DNA from: a virus
Strand: one strand, 5' to 3'
Virus record (IMG/VR): IMGVR_UViG_3300020027_000028
Location: 1-30,371 of that record
DNA length: 30,371 nt
The notes below the pieces were generated by a model. It saw nothing but the letters and a program-made list of their open reading frames with translations. It searched no databases and was not told the DNA's origin. A program made the translations under genes and the position numbers. Below, piece after piece: positions 2,153 to 10,324 of the stretch; the first letter of the stretch is position 1; every line of letters starts with the position of its first letter.

Positions 2153-2513
2153 AGCCCACCCAGGAAGGGTCCTGGAAGCCGTTGTACGGGCCGTAGCGCT
2201 TACGGAGGAGGAATCGGGTCCGCTACGCCGGTTCGAGCGAGAGGCGGCCGTACGGGGCGCGCTAGAGGGCGTGCTCGGCTATCGGGTCGTGGTCGGTCGG
2301 TTCGCCCCTCCTGGTTTTTCTTCTATCGAACATCTGCATCCTGACGGAAAAGTGCGCTCCGTGTCACCATGCAATGTTCGTGAATTTGAAATGTGGGAAT
2401 GCCTCGTGCGTTTCGGTGTGGATATTGTTTCGAGGATTGTCGACGGTGTTGGGTCGGGGGGCTCTGGGGCAAGGATGGTTGAGAGTGCGCAGCCGAAAGA
2501 AAGCTACCTTTGA
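2118..2513 (+). CDS. Hypothetical protein, GC-rich 5' half
   Basis: 131 residues from GTG 2118, preceded by GGAAGGA at 2104-2110 at good spacing. It overlaps the previous gene by about 35 bases. The frame is open further upstream to 1968, but that part reads as a shadow of the preceding gene. The N-terminal half is rich in Arg, Glu, Val and Gly and visibly richer in GC (about 2150-2310) than its surroundings. The second half (FEMWECLVRFGVDIVSRIVD) looks helical. It sits directly before the resolvase gene. Function unknown. Confidence 0.45.
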   Translation: MEHGVDWSAGPRAHPGRVLEAVVRAVALTEEESGPLRRFEREAAVRGALEGVLGYRVVVGRFAPPGFSSIEHLHPDGKVRSVSPCNVREFEMWECLVRFGVDIVSRIVDGVGSGGSGARMVESAQPKESYL

Positions 2514-2523
2514 TCATGAAGAA

Positions 2524-3081
2524 ATGGTGAACAGCCCCGTTGTCATATCGGTCGATGCTGGGGGGACAACGGGTTGGTCCATCATGCAGGTCCACCCTGA
2601 AAGCTTGGTTGACCCTGACGTCCCAATACTTGCAAACATGGAGCATTGGGAGCATGGTCAAATCGTGTCCAACGGTGATGGCGGCAAGTATTCCAAGGAC
2701 ATGGAAGATGCCACCGTTGATGAGCTACTGGATTTGGCCGAGAATTGGGTTGGTGCAGTCTGGGTTCTTGAGGACTTCATCCTTCGCAAGCCGTCAATGG
2801 CACGCGAGCTACTCACGCCCGTACGGATCAATGCATCCCTAGGCTACTCCCTGGGATTGTTGGGCATACAGATCGTGTACCAGATGCCAGACTTCGCCAA
2901 ACGGGTTGCTTCAGATGCCCGTTTGAAGGAGTGGCTTCTGTATGAACGGGCAGGCGGCATGCAGCACGCGCGGGATGCTGATCGGCATGGCATTGTGTTT
3001 CTGCGACGCTTAAAGGAGAAAAGCAAATTGCGGGGTGCGTTTTTCCCGCATTTCTACACGCCCGACGGCGTCCTTAAGTAG
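2524..3081 (+). CDS. RuvC-like Holliday junction resolvase / RNase H-fold nuclease
   Basis: 185 residues from ATG 2524; the frame is open upstream to 2374, but the fold starts here. The order of motifs is that of RuvC-type resolvases: VVISVDAGGTTGWS (acidic residue D11 followed by a G-G-T-T-G turn), VWVLEDFILR (E83), a mid-helix TPVRINASLGYSL, and HARDADRH (D151/D153) near the C-terminus. Phage members of this family cut branched replication or recombination intermediates before packaging, acting as dimers with metal ions. The protein has the family's usual length and directly precedes the replication gene, with a hairpin between them. The exact activity (resolvase or another RNase H-fold nuclease) cannot be decided from sequence alone. 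Confidence 0.8.
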   Translation: MVNSPVVISVDAGGTTGWSIMQVHPESLVDPDVPILANMEHWEHGQIVSNGDGGKYSKDMEDATVDELLDLAENWVGAVWVLEDFILRKPSMARELLTPVRINASLGYSLGLLGIQIVYQMPDFAKRVASDARLKEWLLYERAGGMQHARDADRHGIVFLRRLKEKSKLRGAFFPHFYTPDGVLK

Positions 3082-3217: not shown

Positions 3218-3231
3218 TTGCTCGTGGCTAG
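3172..3231 (+). CDS. Possible 19-residue leader peptide ahead of the primase-polymerase
   Basis: ATG 3172 has GGAG at 3164-3167 upstream and encodes MSISERPRKQKARFGLARG. Its TAG (3229-3231) overlaps the candidate GTG start (3224) of the next gene. It is very basic. It could be a coupling leader that brings ribosomes to a downstream start lacking its own ribosome-binding site, or the true N-terminus of the large protein if a frame change occurs here. Low confidence because it is so short. Confidence 0.3.
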   Translation: MSISERPRKQKARFGLARG

Positions 3232-5833
3232 GCCGAAACGCCGACCATCGGTGCCAGACATCCGTTGTGAGCAACCGTTCGCTCGTGGCGCGCAGGGTGC
3301 ATTTGACAATGGGTGGCTGCCCGTTCCCGGTCGAGTATCTGGTGGGGCCAACCCAAAGGGCGGCACGTTTAGCGGCAAAGAGCCTGCGTTCGCCGGGATC
3401 ACCGCGCGGAAGAATGACATCGATAACATCACCGGTGATTGGGTCGACAGTCAGATTGAACGGTTCACCGGCAAGGCCAACAGTCTGTTGTTGTGGCTGG
3501 ATGAATACCACATCGGTTTCGATGTTGACCACTATGAGAAAGAAACGGCATCAGGCAAGAAGGAGTGGCGCCTGGGTGGCGACCAACTTGCTGAGATGGA
3601 AAAGAAGTGGGGGAAGCTACCTGACACCGTTGTCGTAACCGCCCGCGCGGATGGCGTGTCTGGTATCCGTTTGTTCGAGCTTCCTCGACCGTTGAAGGCA
3701 TCATTGGGCAAGATCAATGATGCTATCGAGATTATTTCGCGCAACTATCGGTGCGTAGCGGCTCCCCCGTCATACCACGTAGGCGTTGACGGTTATGTCA
3801 AGGCATATCTTCCAGGTGAAAAGCTGGACGGCAACGGTGTCCTTGAGATGCCATCCATTGAGAAGTGCGCCATGCTTCCCGATGAGTGGTTTGACGCTCT
3901 TGAAGAGGGCGGCATATCACAGTTCATACCCAAGAAGGATTTTGGCGGGTATGTCAAGAACAGATCGGCCATCGAAAAATGGCTGGAGCAGGATCGGTTC
4001 GCCGGTGAGCCCTGCGCGGCATTCGTCAGAATTTTGGATGGTCTTGAGGCAAACTTTGGCAAACCAGACCCTCACCATTGGTTCGCCCCACAGACCTTCA
4101 AAGCCTGCTGTATGGCAATGGAAGGCCATGTTGGACTTTTAGAGTTCCTAAACCGTTGCGAAGATCTGTTTGAGCATGAGCTTGAAGAAGGGGCTCACCG
4201 CGCGCGGGATACTGGCGAAATATCTCGTGAGTGGGATTCACTGATCGACGGTGCCATCCTGTCAGCAATGACCAAGGATGAAGATGGCATGTTCATCGGC
4301 TATCCAGACAAATGTAATTGTCCGACCATAGGGACAGATGGTCGTCCAATGCATGAGATTAATATCAATCAATATGATTTTCATGCCGAGATGGAGCCAT
4401 GTTATCGTGCTTTGGGGGGTGGCATCGAAAAGGTGGAGGGGGTGTATCTTTCAGGGAATGTGTTGTCGTCATTCTATTATGGCAGACTGGAGGAGCTGGA
4501 TAAGCATGCATTGCGAGATGTCATTTCAGGAGTCGTTTCATTCCGGACGACCCGTACAGCTGGCCGGGACGGGCCGCCGATTCAGGTGCCGGCAATACCT
4601 CCATTACCGCTCCTAGAGTCCCTCCTGAGCTCTCCGCGCCGGTATGAGCACCTTCCTGCGCTAGACCGATTCGCCCGGACACCGTTCTATGCGTGGGATG
4701 ATGGCAAACCTGTTCTTGTGCGAGACAATGGATATCACGAGAAGCACAGGGTCATCGTAGAGCTTGATGATCACATGCTAGATGCCATGGATCGTGTCGA
4801 TGGCAAGAATTCTGATCGAGCTATGTCATTAATCCGTGATGTGTTCTGCGATTTTCCTTTCGCCGGCAACTCTGATTTCGCAACAGTGCTATCGGCATTG
4901 TTGATTCCGTTTGTGCGAGATCTGTTTGAGGGCCCAACTCCGCTACACATGATCGATGCCCCAACTCCGCGCACTGGGAAGGGTCTATTGGCCAGGACCA
5001 TTGCGGGCATCGTCTTGGGTCCAGATGGCCTGGATCGTCTAACGGTCATGCCACCACCAAGCAACAATGTTGAGTTTCGCAAGACGCTGTTCGCAACGCT
5101 CATGGAGTTGCCGTCCATAGTTCAGATCGACAATATCGAGGACAAGCTCTCAAGTCCTGCATTGGCCATGATCTTGACAGAGGTGACATTTAAAGACAGG
5201 GTGCTCGGTCTCAGTAAGATGGCGCGACCTGTGAACAAATGTCTGTGGATAGCAACAGGCAACAATCCCACCACAAGTGATGAAATCGCACGTCGCATCG
5301 TTTCATGTCGGTTGGACTCGGGTACGGAAACACCGCATAAGGGTCGCAAGTTTAGGCATGCAGACCTTCCTGGCTGGGTGCGAGAAAAGCGTCATGAGAT
5401 CGTTTGGGCTTGCTTGACATTGGTGCAAAATTGGATAAATGAGGACATGCCAGAAGGCGAGGCAGAGCTTGGCGGCTTTGAAGATTGGGCCAGGATTGTT
5501 GGTGGAATTTTGGAATGCGCGGGTATTGGCTCGCTATTGGCCAATCAAGATCAGTTCCTTTTACGTGTTGAAGATGAGTCTGAAATCATGCTTGATTTGG
5601 TGAAAGGTTGGGCATCAGTTCATGGAATTGGTGTCGAAAATAGCATCATTGCTAGAGATCTTTTGTCGGTTCCGAACATTGACGACTTGGTTGATTATCG
5701 CGGGAAGAACCCAAGTATGGTCATTGGAAGGAAGATCGGCAAGATGCAGGGGAGAATCATTGGAGGTTTCAAAATTGAACGGGTGGAGATCAAAAAAGAG
5801 TTGCGATGGGTTCTTTCCCCGAATTCTATTTAG
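3224..5833 (+). CDS. Primase-polymerase (AEP/prim-pol) fused to a AAA+ helicase-like domain
   Basis: A replication initiator of about 869 residues (numbering here is from TTG 3218). The N-terminal prim-pol domain has NGWLPVPG near 31-38, then the catalytic pair in IGFDVDHY (D102, D104), ADGVSGIRLF near 144-153 and APPSYH near 182-187; all match the bifunctional primase/polymerase family in order. The middle (200-570) is a linker and helical region. The C-terminal part has a P-loop-like DAPTPRTGKGLLA near 580-592, a Walker B-like VQIDN near 635-639, a sensor-1-like WIATGNNP near 677-684 and an Arg pair near 692-693, as in phage helicases that act with prim-pol. The P-loop ends in GKG rather than GK[ST]. 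The start is uncertain: TTG 3218, GTG 3224 and GTG 3251 are possible, none with a clear ribosome-binding site. The repeat-rich region follows directly. Confidence 0.88.
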   Translation: MARPKRRPSVPDIRCEQPFARGAQGAFDNGWLPVPGRVSGGANPKGGTFSGKEPAFAGITARKNDIDNITGDWVDSQIERFTGKANSLLLWLDEYHIGFDVDHYEKETASGKKEWRLGGDQLAEMEKKWGKLPDTVVVTARADGVSGIRLFELPRPLKASLGKINDAIEIISRNYRCVAAPPSYHVGVDGYVKAYLPGEKLDGNGVLEMPSIEKCAMLPDEWFDALEEGGISQFIPKKDFGGYVKNRSAIEKWLEQDRFAGEPCAAFVRILDGLEANFGKPDPHHWFAPQTFKACCMAMEGHVGLLEFLNRCEDLFEHELEEGAHRARDTGEISREWDSLIDGAILSAMTKDEDGMFIGYPDKCNCPTIGTDGRPMHEININQYDFHAEMEPCYRALGGGIEKVEGVYLSGNVLSSFYYGRLEELDKHALRDVISGVVSFRTTRTAGRDGPPIQVPAIPPLPLLESLLSSPRRYEHLPALDRFARTPFYAWDDGKPVLVRDNGYHEKHRVIVELDDHMLDAMDRVDGKNSDRAMSLIRDVFCDFPFAGNSDFATVLSALLIPFVRDLFEGPTPLHMIDAPTPRTGKGLLARTIAGIVLGPDGLDRLTVMPPPSNNVEFRKTLFATLMELPSIVQIDNIEDKLSSPALAMILTEVTFKDRVLGLSKMARPVNKCLWIATGNNPTTSDEIARRIVSCRLDSGTETPHKGRKFRHADLPGWVREKRHEIVWACLTLVQNWINEDMPEGEAELGGFEDWARIVGGILECAGIGSLLANQDQFLLRVEDESEIMLDLVKGWASVHGIGVENSIIARDLLSVPNIDDLVDYRGKNPSMVIGRKIGKMQGRIIGGFKIERVEIKKELRWVLSPNSI

Positions 5834-5845
5834 ATTTCAAGCGAC

Positions 5846-6150
5846 AAAGTACCCCCGCAAGATCGTTTGTAACAGAAGTACCCCCAAAGTTTCTCCTGGT
5901 AGGAGTGGGTGTGAAGATCGTTAGGGGTACTTTCGGCAGTTTTCTTACAGGGTTCGCAGGGGCTTAGCGCGGGCATGCGCGTAAATACGCATAGGCCCGT
6001 ATACGTATATGTAATTTCTGAAATAAGTACCGTAAGTACCGTAAGTACCCCCTAGAGAGGAATAAGACCTGGTCAGAAGGGGTAGTTAGCGGGGGTACTT
6101 TGTTTGAAACGGGGGTACTTTGAGGAAAAGTGCCTGGTCAGAAGTAGGGT
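5846..6150. repeat. AAGTACC(CCC) repeat array; candidate replication origin or operator cluster
   Basis: The 360 bases between the helicase and the next gene carry no convincing gene. They hold at least eight copies of a short element. Forward: AAAGTACCCCC 5846-5856 and AAGTACCCCC 5876-5885. Inverted: AGGGGTACTTT 5923-5933. Forward, tandem with 9-base period: TAAGTACCG 6024-6032, TAAGTACCG 6033-6041 and TAAGTACCCCC 6042-6052. Inverted, 20 bases apart: GGGGGTACTTT 6091-6101 and 6111-6121. A degenerate AGGGTACAA lies near 6146-6154. AAGATCG also recurs at 5859, 5914 and 6153. An AT-rich palindromic stretch (TATACGTATA, 5999-6008) lies in the middle. Repeats plus an AT-rich segment next to an initiator gene are typical of iteron origins; a repressor operator array is the alternative. 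Confidence 0.8.
6068..6144 (+). repeat. Direct repeat CCTGGTCAGAAG, two copies
   Basis: The 12-mer CCTGGTCAGAAG is at 6068-6079 and again at 6133-6144, 65 bases apart, flanking the two inverted GGGGGTACTTT copies. Both copies are followed within a few bases by a G-rich stretch (GGGGTAG and TAGGGTAC). The bracketed layout suggests a duplicated regulatory or origin unit. Confidence 0.7.
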
Positions 6151-6194
6151 ACAAGATCGAATGACCTGCAATCTTGAATGAAGGGGTGAAAGAC

Positions 6195-6482
6195 ATGAAG
6201 ACGAATGATCTGCATGTTGAAAAGATCATTGAGTCCATTGACTATGTTGCAGCTTCATTGCGATCGATATCGCATGGAGGGCAAACGGGTCCTGAAGGCT
6301 TGGAAATGCTGTCAATAGCCGTTGGTGGCGAAGGCTTGGGCAACTCGCTGGGTGATTCTGTTAGTGGATGCGGAACTGCGGTTGCCGAGGCCATTCGTGA
6401 AGGGATGGAATATGTTGGTGATGCAAATGAGCGTGGACTCAAGGCCATTGCCGATGCAATACGTGAGGGTGCTGGAGGGTGA
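6195..6482 (+). CDS. Hypothetical helical protein with internal AIREG repeats
   Basis: 95 residues from ATG 6195, with AAGGGGTG at 6182-6189 as ribosome-binding site; an upstream TTG 6174 is in frame but less likely. The C-terminal part repeats VAEAIREGMEYV and IADAIREGAGG, suggesting an amphipathic helical pair. The middle is Gly/Ser-rich. It is the first gene after the repeat region. No family recognised. Confidence 0.65.
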   Translation: MKTNDLHVEKIIESIDYVAASLRSISHGGQTGPEGLEMLSIAVGGEGLGNSLGDSVSGCGTAVAEAIREGMEYVGDANERGLKAIADAIREGAGG

Positions 6483-7070: not shown

Positions 7071-7188
7071 TTGGCGGCGCAATGCCAACTGGCCATGGCG
7101 CAATGTGTGGCGTGTGGCGTTGGTTGGAGGCGCATTGTTTGTGATTGGCTTTGCAGGCGCATACTATGGATTGCGATGGGTCCAGTGA
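7003..7188 (+). CDS. Hypothetical small membrane protein
   Basis: 61 residues from GTG 7003, preceded by GAGGTG at 6992-6997; ATG 7018 is an alternative. A polar, basic N-terminal half is followed by one membrane helix (VALVGGALFVIGFAGAYYGL). The stop overlaps the ATG of the terminase small subunit gene (TGATG at 7186-7190), supporting coupling. Confidence 0.55.
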   Translation: MNAIGMLANRVFLKASSDHSENSWRRNANWPWRNVWRVALVGGALFVIGFAGAYYGLRWVQ

Positions 7189-7814
7189 TGGCGACGCGCA
7201 AATCCGACGGCGCGGAATTCCGACCTAGGCATGGTGCGCGCAAACGTTGTTCCGATCCGGATGACATTGGTTGCAGATCATGGGCACGTCGAAATCATGA
7301 CGCTTGCTCTGAGTGTGGTGGCGGGACCCGCGCGGAAGCCAAGCACTTGCCTGATGGAACCATGCGAAAGCGCAATGCAGTTAACGTGGCCCCGCGCGTA
7401 CGCGACTTGCTTGATGGCACCATCAGCATTGAGGATTTGGATGACGAAGAGTTGGTGCGTGGATACATGCGTGCCAAGAATGGCACGTTTGCAGGGAGAG
7501 CGCCAAGAGTTGTTCCCAAGGCCATTCATGATCGGATGATCAGGGAGCTATTTGCAAGAGCAGATGATATGCTGCGAGCAAGTTTGTTGGACTCGGTGCG
7601 GGTGATGTCAGAAGTTGCAGCAGACATAACTGCAACTCCAGGTGAAAGACTCAAAGCTGCGCAATGGATCTATGAGCGAGTGCGCGGGAAGGTTCCCACG
7701 GACGTGCATATCACCGGCGAGATGAAGCCGTATGAGGAACTCCTTGACGATGTGCATCGGGGAGATCCGCCCATTGTTATCGACCAGGAAAATGCAGAAG
7801 ATGACCGCTTTTAG
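7188..7814 (+). CDS. Terminase small subunit (TerS-like)
   Basis: 208 residues from ATG 7188, overlapping the previous stop. The N-terminal 60 residues are basic with a CSECGGG pair. The central part, ISIEDLDDEELVRGYMRAK followed by NGTFAGRAPRVVPKAIH, and the helical region ending ERLKAAQWIYERVRGK, match the layout of terminase small subunits in actinophages, which recognise phage DNA and load it on TerL. The acidic C-terminus (PYEELLDDV) fits too. Five small genes lie between it and TerL, more than usual. The call rests on remembered family pattern and position. Confidence 0.68.
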   Translation: MATRKSDGAEFRPRHGARKRCSDPDDIGCRSWARRNHDACSECGGGTRAEAKHLPDGTMRKRNAVNVAPRVRDLLDGTISIEDLDDEELVRGYMRAKNGTFAGRAPRVVPKAIHDRMIRELFARADDMLRASLLDSVRVMSEVAADITATPGERLKAAQWIYERVRGKVPTDVHITGEMKPYEELLDDVHRGDPPIVIDQENAEDDRF

Positions 7815-8193
7815 TGGGTCTGACCAGGGCAAATGGGCGGGACTAGACGCCGAGACCCTGGTCGGGGTACGTTTGTCCGGTCGAGAGCGATCCGGGAGGG
7901 TCAAATGCCTGCAACCAGGCCCATTTTGCGAGAGCCAGGAGTGCGCGATGATGTCCGCGCCAGGACCTTGCTCGCGTTACATGCGCGCTTGGGGGCTGCA
8001 TCGGGCCGGACGATGGTCCGCTTTCGGCAGGCTCGCAATTCGCTGGGGACCGCTGGATCCAAGGTTGCCGGTGCAATGCGAGTTCGTGGGGGTGCGGTCT
8101 AGCGACCCCCATGGCGCCATGGCGAAGCGCATGAATGCGTTGTCCAGTACGGATGCCCTCACTCTGCCCCCCGGAGTGGGGGTATTCGCATGA
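7801..8193 (+). CDS. Hypothetical protein, uncertain frame in a GC-rich stretch
   Basis: 130 residues from ATG 7801, overlapping the TerS stop by 14 bases and ending in an ATGA overlap with the gene at 8190. This tiling is its main support. It contains scattered Cys (KCLQPGPFCESQECAMM). Composition is high in Gly, Arg and Trp. A second frame (7905-8102) with a better ribosome-binding site lies inside it, and only one is likely to be the main product. Confidence 0.35.
   Translation: MTAFSGSDQGKWAGLDAETLVGVRLSGRERSGRVKCLQPGPFCESQECAMMSAPGPCSRYMRAWGLHRAGRWSAFGRLAIRWGPLDPRLPVQCEFVGVRSSDPHGAMAKRMNALSSTDALTLPPGVGVFA
7905..8102 (+). CDS. Hypothetical basic protein, alternative frame
   Basis: 65 residues from ATG 7905, with a strong GGGAGGG at 7894-7900. 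Basic and Ala/Arg-rich (REPGVRDDVRARTLLALHAR). It competes with the 130-residue frame over the same bases. The local GC is higher than in the flanks. If this frame is the real one, 8103-8189 is non-coding and holds the hairpin CCCCC/GGGGG at 8168-8182. Confidence 0.35.
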   Translation: MPATRPILREPGVRDDVRARTLLALHARLGAASGRTMVRFRQARNSLGTAGSKVAGAMRVRGGAV

Positions 8194-8812: not shown

Positions 8813-10324
8813 ATGAAGCTTGACCCTTGGCTTGTCTACAAAAGGCTTGGATGGCGTCCGCATAAGGCGCAACGTTCTGTATTGGCAAGCCCCGCGCGGC
8901 ACAAGGTGGTATGTGGGGGAAGGCGAACTGGCAAGAGTGCCATTGGTGGGCATGAGTTGGTGCCTTGGGCGCTTGTTGCGCATGATAATGCCAGTTCGCT
9001 CAAAGAGGCGAACAGGCGTATGGAGTATTGGATTGTAGGTCCAAACTTCAGTGATGCGGAAAAGGAATTCCGCGTCTTGTGGAACTCTGTCAAAGCACTT
9101 GGCATTGATATGGACAAGCCTGGCTCATACAATAACCCTGAGTCAGGCTTTATGCATATGTCGCTCTGGGGCGGGGCATACCAGGTACATGCCAAGAGTG
9201 CAATGCACCCAGAGCAATTGGTTGGTGAAGGTCTCCATGGAGTGATCATGGCTGAGGCAGCCAAGATGAAATCCATTGTGTGGACCAAGTACATCCGGCC
9301 GACCTTGGCCGACTATGGCGGTTGGAGCATCCACTCCAGCACGCCAGAGGGCAACAACTGGTTCCATGACAACTGGCAACGCGGGCTTGACCCAGCGCTG
9401 ACTGATTGGGCATCTTGGCGAGTGCCATCTTGGCACAATCCATATGTGTACAAAGAGCGCACAACCGATAAGGACGTCAAGCGGCTCCAGTTGATGCTGG
9501 AGATGAACTCAGCGAGTCTGGACATTCGGACCATTGACCAGTTGTGTGATGACAACGGTCTACAAGTTGATCCTGAGATCCGAATGCTTATGCAGGATCT
9601 GACTGGTGAGGCATTTAACCAGGAAATTGCCGCAGACTTTACTGAGTTTGTGGGCAAGGTGTTCAAGGACTTTGATGAAGAGACGCATGTCTTTGATCTT
9701 CAGTTTGACCCTAAGTGGCAAACATATGCGGCAGTGGACTATGGCTTCACCAACCCATCCGTCTGGTTGCTCATTCAGGTTGGGCCATGGGGTGAGGTCC
9801 ATGTGCTGGATGAAATCTATGAGAGCGGACTCACGGCGCCAGACTTTGCACAGGAGATCAAAGACAGAGGATTATGCCCAAAGGGCTTGATCCGATTCTA
9901 TGCTGATCCAGCTGATCCCGGATCGACTCGCATCCTGAGTGAAGCATTAAAGGTGCGCAATGGTGGCAATACTGGCGGAGCGTTGCCGCCTCGCATTGAT
10001 GCCATTCGCCGCGCGGTAATTCGGCAACCCAAGCATTTGGCTGATGACCATCCAGAGAAGCTGCCGCAATTGCGCATTGACCGTAGATGTAAGCACACCA
10101 TCTATGAGATGGGTGCATATCGATATCCAGAGAAGCGTGAAACGGTGCTTGGTGATGCTGCACCAGAGAACCCCATGAAGAAGGATGACCACGCCCCAGA
10201 GGCATTGGGGCGATTTTTCGCTGGGCATTTTGGTACTCCGCAGAATGCAAATGTGGGGCGACAGAGTACGCCCGCATTCGGTGCGGGGACCCGAGAGGGC
10301 GGCGCGCGGCCCCCAGGCCGGTAG
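8813..10324 (+). CDS. Terminase large subunit (TerL)
   Basis: 503 residues. TerL pumps DNA into the prohead and cuts it. Seen in order: Walker A-like CGGRRTGKS (34-42), Walker B region GVIMAEAAKM (143-152, catalytic E148), coupling motif HSSTPEGNNW (174-183), then the RNase H-fold nuclease with AAVDYGFTNPSV (D309), VLDEIYESG (E334), FYADPADPGST (D365/D368) and KKDDHAPEALGR (about 456-467). The Walker B usually has Asp before the Glu; here it is Ala147. The C-terminal tail after 470 is low-complexity and basic. The ATG at 8813 has no clear ribosome-binding site. Confidence 0.95.
   Translation: MKLDPWLVYKRLGWRPHKAQRSVLASPARHKVVCGGRRTGKSAIGGHELVPWALVAHDNASSLKEANRRMEYWIVGPNFSDAEKEFRVLWNSVKALGIDMDKPGSYNNPESGFMHMSLWGGAYQVHAKSAMHPEQLVGEGLHGVIMAEAAKMKSIVWTKYIRPTLADYGGWSIHSSTPEGNNWFHDNWQRGLDPALTDWASWRVPSWHNPYVYKERTTDKDVKRLQLMLEMNSASLDIRTIDQLCDDNGLQVDPEIRMLMQDLTGEAFNQEIAADFTEFVGKVFKDFDEETHVFDLQFDPKWQTYAAVDYGFTNPSVWLLIQVGPWGEVHVLDEIYESGLTAPDFAQEIKDRGLCPKGLIRFYADPADPGSTRILSEALKVRNGGNTGGALPPRIDAIRRAVIRQPKHLADDHPEKLPQLRIDRRCKHTIYEMGAYRYPEKRETVLGDAAPENPMKKDDHAPEALGRFFAGHFGTPQNANVGRQSTPAFGAGTREGGARPPGR

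Follow-up and report, generated by a model that had tools for sequence, protein, structure and literature searches.

A probable lytic replication origin with two-sided iteron sets directly downstream of a primase-polymerase/helicase gene in a full-sized tailed phage

The window analyzed here, in the following called the contig, is a linear IMG/VR virus fragment of 30,371 bp. It encodes, in this order, ThyX (467–1582), a phrog_1981 protein (2374–3081) occupying the slot of a gene annotated as RuvC-like resolvase in relatives, a primase-polymerase (prim-pol)/helicase, a repeat array, small genes, TerS (7071–7814) and TerL (8813–10324). Lambovirus has a similar order (ThyX, RuvC, prim-pol, gap, small genes, terminase), plus an inserted lysin B gene. 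Since the contig TerL is approximately 56% identical to that of Gordonia phages such as Lambo and the gene order is Lambovirus-like, the host is probably an actinobacterium. Searching IMG/VR with the contig prim-pol as a single protein yielded nothing, and none of 11 TerL relatives had a counterpart in its record. Two such relatives without a matching prim-pol carry strong clusters upstream of TerS, i.e., GACCCTC nine times (L030, 5838–6185) and AGGGTCG seven times (L050, 5339–5440); the clusters share AGGGTC and are possibly origins of another initiator type. A further TerL relative, L029, has two separate clusters upstream of TerS (129–245 and 671–1110; GAGAATC 14 times, AGAAAAC 10 times).

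With the stop of prim-pol at 5833 and no plausible ATG before 6195, the 361-bp gap in between is taken as noncoding, and the first-pass annotation, made from the sequence alone, was right in seeing no gene here. Scans of the gap against Rfam and for terminators and promoters (sigma-70 types only) gave zero matches, and the DNA of 5400–6400 had no similarity match among known phages. Eight copies of AAGTACC in both orientations are located in the gap, the first of them 13 bp past the prim-pol stop. They had been reported before at positions which deviate by just 1–3 bases. Likewise, the 9-base period (6025/6034/6043), the 20-base period (6094/6114), a 12-base repeat around the last inverted pair (CCTGGTCAGAAG, at 6068 and 6133), a threefold AAGATCG (5859, 5914 and 6153) and an AT-rich palindromic stretch (TATACGTATATG..., 80% AT at 6000–6029) were all recovered. 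Beyond these, we detected a third box, CCTGGTAGGAG, at 5895 and a reverse GCAGGTCA at 6162. The features of the region are as follows.

3218–5833, plus strand: prim-pol/helicase initiator gene (prim-pol, AAA+ helicase, winged helix; PF09250, phrog_10537/19930)
5834–6194, no strand: whole noncoding putative origin region, based on the gap and the repeat score
5847–5853, plus strand: iteron 1, left set, AAAGTACCCCC
5876–5882, plus strand: iteron 2, left set
5895–5905, plus strand: left conserved box CCTGGTAGGAG
5926–5932, minus strand: iteron 3, left set
5929–6028, no strand: iteron-free core holding CGTATACGTATATG, measuring 99 bp from midpoint to midpoint of the bordering iterons
6000–6029, no strand: palindromic stretch of high AT content (80%), presumably the melting site
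6025–6031, plus strand: iteron 4, right set, tandem with 9-bp period
6034–6040, plus strand: iteron 5, right set
6043–6049, plus strand: iteron 6, right set
6068–6079, plus strand: right conserved box CCTGGTCAGAAG, spaced 173 bp from its left counterpart
6094–6100, minus strand: iteron 7, right set
6114–6120, minus strand: iteron 8, right set
6133–6144, plus strand: second right conserved box CCTGGTCAGAAG
6162–6169, minus strand: possible additional box GCAGGTCA

AAGTACC occurs ten times in the contig compared to a mean of 1.06 in contig shuffles, which never reached ten. Only two stray copies lie outside the gap, and equal clusters elsewhere, which would have spoken against a special role of this site, are absent. 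For a repeat score, all 7- and 8-mers were scanned in 500-bp windows against dinucleotide shuffles of the whole contig as background. The array region scored 14.7, the best of 100 whole-contig shuffles 8.5. As none of the 100 shuffles reached the score of the region, a chance origin of the array is excluded. The region ranks first among the 290 contig windows, and the contig has no other strong repeat cluster. GC skew, which had been suggested as a check, is positive over almost the entire length and carries no information on an origin here, the contig being a fragment whose genes all lie on the same strand.

The array plan is also found in relatives. At 30 loci, the 500 bp following the prim-pol stop were compared with the whole locus for the best repeat cluster, and they contained the top cluster in 21 cases. 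The same test succeeded in none of 36 regions after TerL and none of 26 regions upstream of prim-pol. Thus, the scan suggested with the first-pass annotation found the plan kept at this exact spot, 3′ of prim-pol, but not the letters AAGTACC. In Predator and Cborch11, the arrays sit a few hundred bases further downstream. Relatives combining a helicase of the contig type with downstream arrays are vir525/L131, L136–138, L140, L142 and L143. The densest arrays found are those of L136, L137 and L138, with 15 copies of AAACTCAT after the stop of a contig-type prim-pol/helicase gene; these three have no CAGGTCAGAG-like box (see below). The array is missing or weak 3′ of prim-pol in ChewyVIII, MacGully, Madraxi, Giuseppe, the phiCbK group, L022 and Yikes, and mostly absent there in a distant D5-like group (L157–L224). 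Yikes (L121, 7189–7518) is an isolated phage with fewer intact iterons, yet its prim-pol is nearly identical to that of Gibbin; its origin may tolerate fewer sites.

Searching IMG/VR for repeats of the pattern GGGGGTACTT gave 17 matches. None was as dense as the contig cluster, from which we conclude that the AAGTACC letters themselves are not conserved. Consensus iterons are CAAAGTACCCC in the contig, ACATCGGTAC in L023, CTGAGGTACGA in L028, AAAGTGGTACA in L065, AATGTGTAACA in L056, AAAAGTGTAAA in L090, AATCGGTAAGG in Lambo, GGTAACCGAAA in MrMiyagi, GTGCCGTAATG in Madi, AAANTGAAACA in DrLupo, AGAAACA in Predator, AACTCAAACA in Cborch11 and TTTGCGGGTAT in vir525. A G(T/A)A(A/C) core is common to many of them, and the 5′ half is variable. 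The L065 iteron TGTACCACTTT (1800–2110) contains TACCACTT, which is also present in the direct-repeat region of SCCmec Cch2 (PMC7581432).

In the contig, three iterons on the left and five on the right flank an iteron-free gap of 99 bp. The longest iteron-free gap in 23 arrays has a median of 105 bp (IQR 98–110). Compared to random placement of equal numbers of iterons over an equal span, this constancy has a combined P of 3e-9, with some of the loci being related; single arrays with few iterons do not reach significance, the contig gap alone giving p = 0.23. Words such as ACGTATA and CTATATA recur among the cores (each in 8 of 23; shuffle maximum 5), and CGTATACGTATATG in the contig core resembles them. 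As a whole, the contig core is just 49% AT, its AT-rich part being the 30 bp at the right edge.

A second element accompanies the iterons. All 24 actinophage arrays contain at least one CAGGTCAGAG-like box, in most cases both left and right of the core, and CCTGGTCAGAAG of the contig is such a box. Using the loose pattern (G/C)C(A/T)GGT(C/A) plus two non-T bases, 58 boxes were counted in these 24 arrays versus 3.5 expected from shuffles, an enrichment which is partly circular because the pattern was drawn up after viewing the same arrays. According to whole-genome counts, the remainder of the genomes is poor in the box: in MrMiyagi, all four CAGGTCAGA copies of 70 kb fall in the array, and in Predator the sole copy does. 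The arrays of nine other viruses contain the box in three cases, about the number expected by chance. In the 17 arrays with boxes on both sides, the nearest boxes across the core are separated by a median of 157 bp (IQR 153–173; contig 173). The CAGGTCAGAG-like boxes around the core appear to be a second conserved origin element. Patience (about 67081–67082) and DrLupo (66360; record coordinates) each have a CAGGTCAGA box in a short gap between genes upstream of prim-pol as well, and the contig has exact CCTGGTCAGA boxes outside its array at 7819 and 18366 (both minus strand), one of them directly past the TerS stop codon. Because of these upstream boxes and the two stray contig copies, the box may act outside the origin, too.

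The initiator contains an archaeo-eukaryotic prim-pol (AEP) domain (PF09250, E = 1e-6), matches the primase-helicases phrog_10537/19930, and has a D5/PriRep-class AAA+ helicase followed by a C-terminal winged helix at about residues 776–871. In the AlphaFold model, the C-terminal half (pLDDT 86.5) closes with helices and then two strands, a predicted winged-helix-like arrangement. Foldseek matched this half to MPXV E5/D5, AsfvPrimPol, SaPI PriRep1 with dsDNA (7pds, E = 2e-5) and the SaPI5 primase-helicase (7ola, E = 3e-5), at moderate TM-scores of 0.3–0.45. A sister family matches 7ola by sequence with an E-value of 3e-14. By sequence, the contig helicase belongs to the phrog_10537 group and most relatives to the D5_N group; downstream arrays occur in members of both. 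All prim-pols together are too diverse for their joint alignment to be used as a search query.

Comparisons between related phages link iterons to the C-terminus of the initiator. Predator and Cborch11 have 93% identical helicases but C-termini of only 29% identity, and their iterons are AGAAACA versus TCAAACA. Their DNA similarity breaks off at approximately prim-pol codon 880 and returns with the last box; hence, the exchanged piece comprises the C-terminal domain together with the array. Lambo and Patos are 99% identical in the AEP domain but only 31% in the helicase and 30% in the C-terminus, with iterons AATCGGTAAGG versus CCGTAACCG. Here, the DNA is about 92% identical across resolvase, lysin B and the initial third of prim-pol, similarity is then lost, and it is back at about 89% from about the first gene past the array. 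Gibbin and DumpTruck, with 53% identity in AEP, 94% in the helicase and 79% in the C-terminus, have the same iteron, TAACGGTACGG. DumpTruck and Wojtek differ in their iterons, sharing 84% in AEP and 30% in the C-terminus. Most simply, the C-terminal winged helix would be the reader of the iterons; as array and C-terminus are adjacent, they could also be inherited together without contact, hitchhiking by linkage. A Mantel test against the iteron letters of 22 phages was positive but not specific for the C-terminus (rho 0.27 for the C-terminus, 0.26 for AEP). For the 10432 protein, earlier named as another candidate reader of the sites, no support was obtained; the domain swaps point to prim-pol's own C-terminal winged helix.

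Several known systems resemble this arrangement. The alpha protein of phage P4, a system also treated in PMC4234260, unites primase, helicase and a C-terminal origin-binding domain in one protein acting on iterons; unlike in the contig, its primase is TOPRIM-type. The origins of SaPI and the putative one of SCCmec consist of iterons and lie directly 3′ of the initiator helicase gene (PMC7581432, PMC6092414). In PICI/SaPI origins, two iteron sets flank an AT-rich region, and the C-terminal domain of the initiator reads the origin (PMC6092414, PMC7581432). The contig shares with them the iterons directly past the initiator-helicase gene, two sets around a core with an AT-rich stretch, and a D5/SF3-class helicase with a predicted winged-helix C-terminus (folds 7pds, 7ola). 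It differs in being a full-sized tailed phage with its own terminase and ThyX rather than a satellite, and in adding a fused N-terminal AEP prim-pol and the CAGGTCAGAG-like box. A PICI element itself is a satellite island devoid of packaging and structural genes of its own, a description which the contig, an IMG/VR virus record with its own TerS and TerL, does not match. The initiator helicase of SCCmec, Cch2, binds to direct repeats of the intergenic stretch 3′ of its own gene (PMC7581432), again downstream of an initiator helicase gene as in the contig, but SCCmec has a separate A-family polymerase/MP primase and few short iterons and is not a phage. ORF904 of pRN1 is an AEP-helicase-winged-helix initiator with an essential origin just 3′ of its gene (PMC4234260), the same domain plan and origin position as in the contig. 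However, the pRN1 origin is a stem-loop of approximately 100 nt without iterons. A pRN1-type origin does not fit the contig, where iterons are present and no closely spaced long hairpin was among the inverted repeats detected.

Taken together, we conclude with a probability of about 0.82 that the array is a lytic replication origin read by the C-terminal domain of the initiator, on a PICI/SaPI-like plan in a full-sized phage. The earlier proposal of an origin with mixed-orientation iterons beside its initiator is thereby supported at the sequence level, by the position, the two-sided geometry, the plan kept 3′ of prim-pol in relatives and the co-exchange of iterons with C-termini. Binding, melting and priming would follow the example of PICI/SaPI Rep, SCCmec Cch2 and P4 alpha: the prim-pol/helicase would bind the AAGTACC iterons to the left and right of the approximately 100-bp core via its C-terminal winged helix, assemble as one or two hexamers, open the AT-rich part of the core and then unwind the DNA. 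The N-terminal prim-pol would lay the first primers, and host enzymes may join afterward. We propose tentatively, at somewhat less than even odds, a “two-key” origin, in which fast-changing iterons would be the key for an exchangeable winged helix and the near-invariant CAGGTCAGAG-like box flanking the core left and right would be read by a shared phage or host factor. Candidate readers of the box are the AEP primase, with the box as priming start site, or an actinobacterial host factor.

Repeats in both orientations, lying in a gap before a run of genes, might instead form a multi-operator control region, the alternative already given in the first-pass annotation, where a phage repressor or prim-pol itself regulates transcription of the downstream genes. 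In Patience and DrLupo, the occurrence of the second box shortly before prim-pol would suit such a role. However, operators are expected near other promoters, too, but AAGTACC is confined to the gap apart from the two stray copies, and the iterons of most other phages are similarly rare outside their own arrays. Further, the gap lacks any promoter-like match of the sigma-70 types scanned, and neither a two-set geometry around a core of approximately 105 bp nor C-terminal swaps would be expected of operators. We consider this explanation unlikely. Recognition by the small terminase as a packaging (pac/cos) site is quite improbable: the array does lie between prim-pol and TerS/TerL, and in many phages about 1–5 kb upstream of the terminase, but the clusters abut prim-pol rather than terS and rank first after TerL in 0 of 36 cases, and the TerS-like proteins of Lambo and Patos are 89.5% identical despite different iterons. 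Mixed repeats can also be ParB or ParR sites, but a centromere-like partition site for plasmid-like prophage maintenance is very improbable, as the annotations of the phages examined list no ParA/ParB-type gene next to the arrays, none was identified among the contig genes searched, and the partner changing with the iterons is the helicase winged helix.

Origins of this kind are already known from satellites and plasmids. A literature search, mainly of openly accessible papers, found no description of iterons downstream of actinophage prim-pol genes. New with respect to the literature searched are the conserved use of such an origin plan in full-sized actinophages, the winged-helix/iteron cassettes and the near-invariant second box. 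The probable lytic origin now has a testable address in the contig phage and in several named groups of Mycobacterium and Gordonia phages (Lambo, Patos, MrMiyagi, Predator, Patience, DrLupo, Madi, Aikoy and others); the search found no origin description for them. A layout which has been called unique to PICI satellites is extended to autonomous phages, a hint at its being common to, or exchanged between, the two. Phage pairs with naturally swapped winged helix and iterons lend themselves to measuring the evolution of initiator-origin specificity, and a defined new question is posed by the near-invariant box. If the origin indeed has two keys, winged helix and iterons would constitute a mobile cassette by which related phages can switch origin identity.
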